Shown here: piece after piece, positions 41,196 to 43,078 of the stretch
Layout: each line of letters starts with the position of its first letter
Numbering within the stretch: position 1 is the stretch's first letter
IMG/VR virus record: IMGVR_UViG_3300046557_000242
Location: 1-64,000 of that record
Source of the DNA: a virus
Length of the DNA: 64,000 bases
Strand: one strand, 5' to 3'
Position numbers and translations under genes: made by a program
The notes under the pieces: model-generated
What the model saw: only the letters and a program-made list of their open reading frames with translations
What the model was told of the DNA's origin: nothing
The model's database searches: none

Positions 41196-41473
41196 GTCTG
41201 ACCGAGCAGTTGGAAGCCGCGAAGGCTGAGGTCGCCCGGCTCGAACGGATCGCGGCGACCGCCACCTGCCGGGAGCTGGGCTGCGACATGCAGACGTTCG
41301 GCGGCTGCTGCGCCAGCTGCGACGACAGGAAGGACACCTGCATCTGTTCGGTGCCGGTCCATAAATGCACCCGCTGCGGCGACTGTGACTATGGTGAGAA
41401 CGAGGAAGCAGAGCGGATCAGGGCCGATTGCAAGCGGATCCGTGATCCGCTCTTTGAGACAGCCGATGCCTGA
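41192..41473 (+). CDS. Cys-rich, probable zinc-ribbon protein
   Basis: A 93-residue protein. A helical start (LEAAKAEVARLERIAATATC) is followed by about 11 Cys in ELGCDMQTFGGCCASCDDRK, DTCICSVPVH and KCTRCGDCDY, which could bind two or more zinc ions. Upstream of the excisionase and overlapping it by 8 bases. Function is unknown. Confidence 0.55.
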   Translation: MSLTEQLEAAKAEVARLERIAATATCRELGCDMQTFGGCCASCDDRKDTCICSVPVHKCTRCGDCDYGENEEAERIRADCKRIRDPLFETADA

Positions 41474-41858
41474 GTACGCAAACGACAACGCGGTCCAGAC
41501 CGACATCGGCGTGATCAGAAGAGACACGCCGCTGCGGCTGGAAGTTGCCGCTCGACTCGCCTTTCCGGACGGGTCTATGAAACTGGCGAGCCTACGTCGC
41601 GAGATCGCTCGCGGTCGGCTCACCTACGAAGTGATCGCGGGCAAGCACTACACCACGCTCGCCAACATCGAGGCTATGAGAGAGTTATGTCGCGTAACAG
41701 CAAAGGCCCCCGTCTCTACAAGCGACCTTCCCGACGCGAGGGCGGCAAATTCAAACCTGCGATGTGGGTCGTCCGAGATAAGCAAAAGGTCGTCTCCACA
41801 GGAATTGCTGCGGGAGCGGATGAGACTGCGCCGCCAATCGAGGCAGAGCAGTTCCTGA
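41466..41858 (+). CDS. Excisionase-like small DNA-binding protein
   Basis: A 130-residue protein. LRLEVAARLAFPDGSMKLAS, then LRREIARGRLTYEVIAGKHY and TTLANIEAMRELC form the winged-helix excisionase pattern often found next to integrases in rhizobial prophages. The conserved region is residues ~18-72. The rest (about residue 75 onward) lies in the same DNA as the integrase start in another frame and is Arg/Ser-rich, so it may be an unstructured tail. It should direct excision against the attP core 1 kb downstream. Confidence 0.65.
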   Translation: MPEYANDNAVQTDIGVIRRDTPLRLEVAARLAFPDGSMKLASLRREIARGRLTYEVIAGKHYTTLANIEAMRELCRVTAKAPVSTSDLPDARAANSNLRCGSSEISKRSSPQELLRERMRLRRQSRQSSS

Positions 41859-42895
41859 GCAAATACCTGGCCGAGAAATTCGATCCTACTCGGCGCGCCA
41901 AGGACATCGCCAACATCCTGATCGGCGAGGTCCTCGTGATCTACGATCAGGACAAGGGCGGCGCCGACAATCCAGACAAGAACCTGTCCGGTCACATCGA
42001 GCGCCTCAATGAGTTCTGGGGCGACAAGTACCTGATCGAGGTCAACCCGAAGACCTGTCGGGACTACGTCAAGACCCGTCCTGGCATCGGCGGCGCACGG
42101 CGGGACCTCGAAGTGCTGCGCGCGGCCATCAACAATCACTCCGGCCAGAACCTGCACTTCGGCACGGTCAACGTGACGCTGCCGGCGAAGGGCGAGTCCC
42201 GCAAGGACTGGATCACGCGGCGCGAGGCTGCCGCGATCATCTGGGCTGCCTGGCGTTACCGCGAGGTCCAGACCATCCATCGCGGCGAGCGTAAGGGCGA
42301 AGAGGTCATCACCGACAAACGACCGCTTCGGCATGTCGCCCGCTTCCTGCTGATCGGCTGCTACACCGGAACCCGGGCCGGAGCCATCGCCTCAGCCTCG
42401 GTCAAGAAGGAGACGGGCAAATCGTTCGTCGACCTGGAGGCTGGCCTCTACTATCGACTCGCGATCGGCAAGCAGGCGACCAAGAAGCAGCAGCCCGTGG
42501 CACCGCTGCCGCCCCGGCTGCTGGCGCACATGCGGCGCTGGGTGGATCGCGGGATCGTCGCCGAGAACTTCGTCGAGTTCCGGGGCAAGCCGGTCAAGCG
42601 GGTCAAGAAGGGCTTCGCCAGCGCGGTGCGTCTGTCCGGGGTCAACGTCAAGGTCACGCCGCACACGCTGCGGCACACGGCAGCGACTTGGCTGATGCAG
42701 GCGGGCGTCGACGAGTGGGAGGCGGCCGGCTATCTCGGCATGTCAGTCGAGGTGCTGCGCGAGGTCTACGGCCACCATCATCCGGACTATATGAAGGGCG
42801 CCGTCGCAGGCATCACCAAGAAGACCAAGGGTTCCAAACCCAAGGAATCTGTACCCCAACCTGTACCCCAGAAGCGGTTGCAGAAATCAGCGTAG
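41687..42895 (+). CDS. int: Tyrosine site-specific integrase
   Basis: A 402-residue protein with the catalytic residues of tyrosine recombinases. Arg230 is in CYTGTRAGAI, HTLRH supplies His326, Arg329 and His330, GHHHPD gives the second His position, and Tyr368 (HHHPDYMKG) is the nucleophile. The N-terminal ~170 residues carry arm-binding and core-binding domains. The Pro/Val-rich end (SVPQPVPQK) is encoded by a CTGTACCCCA repeat. The excisionase-like gene overlaps its start by 172 bases. The attP core lies 31 bases after its stop. Confidence 0.93.
   Translation: MSRNSKGPRLYKRPSRREGGKFKPAMWVVRDKQKVVSTGIAAGADETAPPIEAEQFLSKYLAEKFDPTRRAKDIANILIGEVLVIYDQDKGGADNPDKNLSGHIERLNEFWGDKYLIEVNPKTCRDYVKTRPGIGGARRDLEVLRAAINNHSGQNLHFGTVNVTLPAKGESRKDWITRREAAAIIWAAWRYREVQTIHRGERKGEEVITDKRPLRHVARFLLIGCYTGTRAGAIASASVKKETGKSFVDLEAGLYYRLAIGKQATKKQQPVAPLPPRLLAHMRRWVDRGIVAENFVEFRGKPVKRVKKGFASAVRLSGVNVKVTPHTLRHTAATWLMQAGVDEWEAAGYLGMSVEVLREVYGHHHPDYMKGAVAGITKKTKGSKPKESVPQPVPQKRLQKSA
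42848..42871 (+). repeat. Left CTGTACCCCA repeat (candidate arm-type integrase site)
   Basis: Two tandem CTGTACCCCA units, 11 bp apart, inside the last codons of int. They match 43056-43078 on the other side of the attP core almost exactly. They are probable arm-type binding sites (inference). Confidence 0.55.
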
Positions 42896-42925
42896 GAGAT
42901 TATGATGTTGTTTCAAGGGTTTAGA

Positions 42926-42970
42926 TGGTCGGAGTGGCAGGATTCGAACCTGCGACCCCTGCGTCCCGAA
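42926..42970 (-). other. attP core: 3' half of a tRNA-Pro(CGG) gene
   Basis: On the - strand, the sequence starts in an anticodon loop (TTCGGGA, anticodon CGG). It then reads the anticodon 3' stem CGCAG, variable loop, T-arm GCAGG-TTCGAAT-CCTGC, acceptor 3' half CACTCCG, and ACCA. This is the 3' half of a host tRNA-Pro gene, which integration would restore. There is no 5' half, so it is not a tRNA gene. It lies 31 bases after the int stop, typical for attP. Confidence 0.88.
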
Positions 42971-43055
42971 CATAGGGGCAGGCCTATCCTGCATTGATTT
43001 TATTGGGGTTTTTGGCGTCTCTTGATCTGAACTTTCCCATTTTGTTCACGGTCAT

Positions 43056-43078
43056 TCTGTACCCAATCTGTACCCCAG
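43056..43078 (+). repeat. Right CTGTACCC(C)A repeat (candidate arm-type integrase site)
   Basis: CTGTACCC-AATCTGTACCCCAG repeats the left arm with one base missing. It sits 86 bases beyond the attP core. Together they flank the core as arm sites would. Confidence 0.55.

Follow-up and report, generated by a model that had tools for sequence, protein, structure and literature searches.

A putative tRNA-Pro(CGG) attachment site of an uncultivated phage and its counterpart at the ends of small integrase-less islands in Bradyrhizobium

Rhizobium phage 16-3 is reported, in a 2002 J. Bacteriol. paper, to integrate into the tRNA-Pro(CGG) gene of several genera. The prophage phi3LM21 of Sinorhizobium sp. 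LM21 resides in tRNA-Pro(CGG), where a 57-nt repeat restores the gene (PMC5537653). In Bradyrhizobium, ICEs and symICEs use a tRNA-Pro site, and the isoacceptor is not named in the available parts of the two reports (PMC9239051, PMC9174649).

The DNA that was analyzed here, referred to as the window, comprises bases 1-64000 of a 65,592-base virus record from IMG/VR. It contains a gene for a tyrosine-recombinase integrase of 402 aa (int, 41687..42895, plus strand), which matches PHROG 1 integrase (2.9e-25) and PF00589 (6.5e-10); the score of the catalytic domain, 39.5 bits, lies above the curated cut-off of 27.1. The start of int is overlapped by a candidate excisionase gene (41466..41858, plus strand), the open reading frame of which opens at 41385, while the homologous part begins near the ATG at 41466. 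In addition, a repressor-like regulator is encoded at 18746..19540 on the minus strand (PHROG 1373 transcriptional regulator, 2.2e-05), which is consistent with a temperate phage.

The closest CHARACTERISED system is that of Rhizobium (Sinorhizobium) phage 16-3 (DQ500118), which provided the best match to the window Int among annotated phages. The two integrases are homologous (39% over 392 aa, 2e-75), the annotated Xis of 16-3 matches the candidate excisionase of the window at 61% over 75 aa, and xis overlaps int in both phages; the window gene would thus be expected to act as an excisionase. Both phages also have the attP directly downstream of int, with the 3' half of tRNA-Pro(CGG) as the core, and the two cores differ at 8 of 45 positions. 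The integrase of phi3LM21 is 33.9% identical to the window Int and uses the same tRNA-Pro(CGG), whereas the host genus differs. Because of the likeness to 16-3 and phi3LM21, the window attP belongs to an already known kind.

Read from the sequence, a complete attP extends from 42849 to 43077 and adjoins the integrase gene. Its core is a copy of the 3' half of tRNA-Pro(CGG) on the minus strand (42926-42971), which begins 30 bases after the int stop codon and is identical at 46 of 46 positions to the tRNA-Pro(CGG) gene of Bradyrhizobium. The original prediction had placed such a copy after int, as was found, but with a length of 45 bases instead of 46 nt. The core starts one base ahead of the anticodon loop, ends with the ACCA, and reads GTTCGGGAC...CCGACCA in the sense of the tRNA. 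ARAGORN detected no complete tRNA in the 64 kb of the window, and thus the copy is a fragment. The identity between the core and the host gene stops one base past the anticodon loop (42964-42970), and the exact crossover is predicted to lie within this loop.

The core is situated between two tandem pairs of the motif CTGTACCCC, all on the plus strand. The P pair consists of two CTGTACCCCA copies at 42849..42858, starting 77 bp left of the core, and, 12 bp further on, at 42861..42870. The P' pair consists of a copy with one mismatch (CTGTACCCAA) at 43057..43066, +86 from the first 45 bp of the core, and, after 11 bp, a CTGTACCCCA copy at 43068..43077. Paired repeats around the core had been predicted and are indeed present, albeit with one imperfect copy on the right and with different spacings on the two sides. 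When up to one mismatch was allowed, CTGTACCCCA had 8 matches in the 64 kb, compared with 1.40 expected, and none of 100 shuffles reached 8; four of the eight fall within the 230-bp attP. The attP of 16-3 (260 bp), which is annotated as functional and was used for the comparison of the arm layouts, has a P pair at the same spacing of 12, starting 82 bp to the left of the core, and, about 85 bp to its right, a P' pair with a spacing of 10, compared with 11 in the window. The arm motif is ATCATTGCC-like in 16-3 versus CTGTACCCC in the window, and the P pair, which lies inside int in the window, begins at the stop codon of int in 16-3.

As foreseen, the left pair is embedded in the C-terminal codons of int and encodes ...ESVPQPVPQ... 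in the reading frame. This raises the question of whether the repeats might not be integrase sites at all, the left pair being a chance result of the Int peptide VPQPVPQ and the right pair being unrelated. Integrase C-termini can be repetitive, and the encoded peptide is a near-repeat; however, the right pair lies outside the int coding sequence and yet shares the motif and is in phase. Furthermore, arm pairs with clade-specific motifs recur at both ends of relatives, they persist in islands without int (both described below), and the layout of phage 16-3 is the same, all of which makes a chance origin very improbable. Because position and phase are conserved, the repeats are retained without int, and the layout matches the 16-3 attP, the P and P' repeats are probably bound by Int.

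The host site was surveyed in 265 Bradyrhizobium genomes, one per species. The 45-mer of the core was present with at most one mismatch in 256 of them, and the 3' half of the host tRNA was identical to the core, whereas a difference between the two had been named in the original prediction as evidence against it. The tRNA end together with one native flank was matched within 3 mismatches in 77 of the 265 genomes. Ten of the rows listed lack the 5' side of the tRNA and are att copies, leaving 67 genomes (hand count) with an unoccupied tRNA-Pro(CGG) site of that flank type. Relatives of the window Int were found at E <= 1e-20 in 132 of the 265 genomes, the best full-length one being 60% identical, and none of the 265 genomes contained an integrated Int of the window type with its own arms.

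ARAGORN was used to identify the tRNA at the 3' end of int in the 30 best Bradyrhizobium loci. An intact tRNA-Pro(CGG) gene, the proposed host target, was found in 23 cases, tRNA-Met(CAT) in three, and no tRNA in four. Reading of the latter four revealed a tRNA-Pro with masked bases (L017), a tRNA-Pro core within a tandem array (L015), a tRNA-Met 3'-half copy (L043), and nothing recognizable (L035). A wider tally comprised 91 loci, i.e. the 30 best, 60 more among the matches listed, and L004, with shorter fragments and lower matches left aside. It yielded 25 Pro, 23 Met, one Val (294 nt away), and 42 loci without an ARAGORN prediction, among which two Pro (again L015 and L017) and 14 inverted tRNA-Met 3'-half copies were recognized by reading. 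In a tree of 93 rows the tRNA labels were strongly clustered. The window Int, on a long branch (0.67), belongs to a clade of 28 rows with a support of 95/92, together with 26 Pro rows and L035, and the relatives that target tRNA-Met(CAT) fall outside this clade.

The integrated relatives are bounded by direct repeats of the core. At their distal junctions a second core copy is followed by a tandem pair that matches the motif on the int side, e.g. CGGTGGT or GGGGTT. The junctions lie at the predicted site; a position elsewhere would have spoken against it. A comparison of junctions had also been proposed, and its outcome supports the prediction, if not for every relative: those of the Pro clade agree with it, and others use tRNA-Met(CAT). 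Large islands of Bradyrhizobium encode integrases homologous to that of the window and share its att layout at tRNA-Pro(CGG), with other arm motifs; those listed with two core copies on one contig measure 43-242 kb (by subtraction). They have the genus and the use of a tRNA-Pro site in common with the published ICEs and symICEs. In the genome G034, three tRNA-Pro cores follow one another on contig C2 (2188261, 2195333, and 2412707), about 7 kb and 217 kb apart, which is tandem accretion at a tRNA-Pro hotspot.

The best-scoring spacing of the arm pairs was 11 for the P' side in 29 of 29 att structures, and 12, alone or tied, for the P side in 27 of 29. The two exceptions were G265, with a best spacing of 17, and the viral attP L045, which lacks a spacing of 12 on the P side; in L036, the P pair is located after the int stop. 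The P unit differed from its own P' region by 0-2 mismatches of 9 in 28 of the 29 structures. Against the P' regions of other elements the mean was 2.06 mismatches, a value that is lowered because motifs are shared among elements; the P unit of the window had 3-4 mismatches to P' regions of other motif types. Shuffle values above 0.05 were obtained for the P pair in seven structures and for the P' pair in none of the 29. As the regions and the word length were picked after inspection and single bases were shuffled, these values are supportive and do not represent formal tests.

Together, these findings make it very probable that 42849-43077 is the attP of a temperate Bradyrhizobium phage with a xis-int-attP module of the 16-3 type. 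The observations that underlie this reading are the identity of the core, the junctions of the relatives, the arm pairs at two ends, the phylogeny, and the homology of int, xis, and attP. The nitrogen-fixing genus Bradyrhizobium is the likely host, as judged from the tRNA and the relatives. Int would bind to the two pairs of arm sites, P in the last int codons with a 12-bp period and P' with an 11-bp period, and, bridging arm and core sites, would exchange strands between attP and the host tRNA-Pro(CGG) at the anticodon loop. The tRNA beside int would be made whole again by the 3' half that the phage brings, and the 3' half displaced from the host gene would end up beside P' as the distal core. 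One might suppose instead that the attP is a dead relic on a defective or chimeric contig, with a core left over from an older host, as the completeness of the 65.6-kb virus record is not stated and no near-identical relative was found in IMG/VR. However, int is open over 402 aa, the Xis-like gene is intact, the core still fits present-day host genes without a mismatch, and the four arm repeats are in register with integrated relatives; we give the relic hardly any credence.

Several features of the relatives were observed in addition. In 18 of the 25 tRNA-Pro integrants that ARAGORN confirmed (L016, L018-L025, L027-L031, L033, L034, L037, and L058), int is not terminated ahead of the tRNA; its ORF continues antisense through the core and ends inside the tRNA. 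In G056, the single case that was checked, integration would turn the Int C-terminus ...RPERK into ...RPERSALPG. In 14 relatives (L043, L047, L049-L057, L060, L062, and L064), the att core has the reverse orientation with respect to int, which is situated at the distal junction beside a tRNA-Met(CAT) 3'-half copy in the opposite orientation.

The search for viral relatives in IMG/VR was based on sequence patterns. The pattern scan with the window Int retrieved no close phage relative, and the scan with the P' pattern had no match. The arm pattern matched 102 stretches, 80 of which were loaded and scanned; these contained no relative of the window Int with the exception of one partial match of 29%. 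Two matches, L150 and L156, were discarded as repeat-rich stretches that match the pattern trivially. Two attP-like sites were seen in viral records: one at 6780-7010 of L045 (IMGVR_UViG_3300046501_000316), where pairs of the GGTACTC type flank a tRNA-Pro(CGG) core identical to that of the window, and one at about 2796-3002 of L211 (IMGVR_UViG_3300021408_000140), in which CTGTACCCC pairs, the arm motif of the window, surround an apparent piece of a different tRNA, tRNA-Phe(GAA). Phage BDU-MI-1 was considered as a close relative on account of a DNA match of 72% over 39% of a 6-kb query and was rejected, because its integrase reads differently and a different tRNA piece lies upstream of its integrase. 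It is thus uninformative about the window attP, except for a likely shared host genus. Its tRNA piece (L003, 10440-10750; Pro, perhaps TGG, by eye) is flanked by GGGTGCC repeats on both sides.

The att structure of the window type was found at islands in four of the 265 Bradyrhizobium genomes (G025, G028, G177, and G181) and in one provirus contig of IMG/VR. The pattern CTGTACNCN{3,4}CTGTACCC occurred at nine sites in five of the 265 genomes. Eight sites form the paired ends of the islands, with one island in each of the four genomes, and the ninth, on contig C124 of G205, is unpaired. The same arm pattern read backwards was present at about 25 sites (hand count) in the 265 genomes, and at the level of the order the arm pattern was found in 2 of 397 genomes, at three single sites. 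The islands are 4429 (G025), 4323 (G028), 3933 (G177), and 4654 bp (G181) long, core to core inclusive, and occupy the same tRNA-Pro(CGG) as is predicted for the phage. The positions of P and P' are within 2 bp of those of the window: relative to the core, P' starts at +86/+97 in the window as well as in three of the islands and at +87/+98 in G025, and P starts at -77/-65 in the window and at -78/-66 or -79/-67 in the islands. The core and the P' side of the window could be aligned to three islands over 154-157 bp (79-81%) and to G181 in pieces, and the P side over 61-62 bp including the core (95-97%). In G025, G177, and G181, the P end has the complete tRNA, and the island of G028 lies within a tandem array. 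The fifth island starts at the edge of the provirus contig, which contains the core and the P' pair, while the P end is outside the contig; its place in this contig reflects a chromosomal context and not packaging.

Beyond the ends and the arm pairs, no other DNA shared between the window and the islands was found below an E value of 0.04. The four islands contain neither int nor xis; the best E values were 0.62 for Int and 0.32 for Xis, and the weak Int matches in G177 and G181 simply re-read the P pair. The islands thus retain just the DNA that the window Int would need, in phase, and no other phage part.

The cargo of the four islands differs. The island of G028 encodes a reverse transcriptase fused to a trypsin-like peptidase (PADLOC RT-Protease_XI, type XI, 5.5e-159), that of G177 an AbiV protein (PF18728, 2e-33), and that of G025 the Lamassu proteins LmuA (1.3e-42) and LmuB (8e-123). 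A protein of 302 aa common to G028, G177, and G181 matches PDC-S42 (6e-16 to 9e-17), a family name that is a candidate-defence label only. This protein was found in 6 of the 265 genomes, namely in the three islands (94-100%) and in three remote copies (32-60%); no tRNA-Pro was seen near the latter in a tRNA scan of the three loci, in two of which the ORFs were read. The fifth island has a cargo similar to that of G181. In addition, three islands share a protein of 268-277 aa (L138 9294-10100, L252 3804-4637, and L275 963-1769), which had no match in Pfam or PADLOC in the two copies tested.

That the islands carry the docking site of the phage but no integration enzyme suggests that they use the phage enzyme. 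On balance, the window phage may well be a helper of these integrase-less defence islands of 3.9-4.7 kb, which would be mobilized in trans by an Int and Xis of the window type. The islands would excise and integrate via the enzymes of an incoming or resident phage of this type and would consist of a faithful copy of the arms of the phage attL and attR that encloses a cargo open to exchange (RT-protease type XI, AbiV, Lamassu, PDC-S42-like). As no integrated window-type Int is present in the 265 genomes, a helper would have to be either a phage that arrives from outside or a lysogen that the sample does not include.

The main competing explanation is that the islands are stranded remains of decayed prophages or ICEs, and that their common ends reflect descent and not present movement driven by phages. 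Such CIMEs, which keep attL and attR and have lost the genes for integration and transfer, are an established outcome (PMC5704250). Two of the four islands, G028 and G025, are located in tandem arrays at the hotspot, and the outer (left) core of the G025 island is damaged, as would fit decay. The lack of any Int or Xis similarity below E = 0.3 fits decay less well, and the P pairs persist although they lie outside any int gene. Comparison of the ends with the chromosomal flanks did not yield a uniform result: the ends of G181 and G025 are less alike than their flanks (83.8% versus 87.7%), as expected from descent, whereas those of G177 and G181 are more alike (88.4% versus 79.7%), which counts against a purely vertical history. 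Moreover, the ends of all four islands are homologous around differing cargo, and thus the integrase-less form looks inherited as a form. We regard stranding as possible, if somewhat doubtful.

Small core-to-core intervals were also surveyed among the matches listed and read by ORFs and repeats. An interval of 1.43 kb in G038 is flanked on either side by CGGGGGG arm pairs, with no int seen in it; the presence of arms of another integrase type suggests that the strategy is not unique to the window helper. In G007, an interval of 2.1 kb has an arm pair on one side only, and in G033 an interval of 7.3 kb has repeats at either side, and by eye none of its ORFs is an int.

Reviews name CIMEs, CALINs, and MITEs as hitchers without an integrase or transposase. 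The islands resemble CIMEs in having attL and attR but neither an integrase nor transfer genes, in their location at a tRNA, and in their partly tandem arrangement; they differ in being a family with common ends, exchanged defence cargo, and att sites that match a phage attP. They resemble phage satellites (PICI, PLE, P4-like, PICMI) in their small size, anti-phage genes, and apparent phage dependence. However, unlike PICIs, P4, and PLEs, they have no integrase of their own and no recognizable packaging or capsid gene, and their dependence would be on the integrase itself, unlike that of PICI, PLE, P4-like, and PICMI elements. Integrase-less satellites described in the available part of one report are plasmid-borne or carry another recombinase (PMC13230959). 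Defence islands that depend on a phage integrase, or trans-mobilized satellites or tycheposons of such a sort, were not found in a literature search that mostly lay outside subscription journals and preprints.

In summary, the likely host, Bradyrhizobium, and the insertion site of an uncultivated phage were obtained from sequence alone. The common layout, i.e. a tRNA 3' half with a pair at 12-bp spacing on the int side and a pair of the same motif at 11-bp spacing on the other side, provides a rule for finding attP sites. How small defence islands move at hotspots of E. coli is stated to be unclear (PMC10121019). The att anatomy of the islands described here, which lack mobility genes, points to one specific helper enzyme, and the question of island movement thereby becomes a simple experiment. 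If the helper reading is true, immunity to phages would be spread by means of an enzyme that a phage provides.
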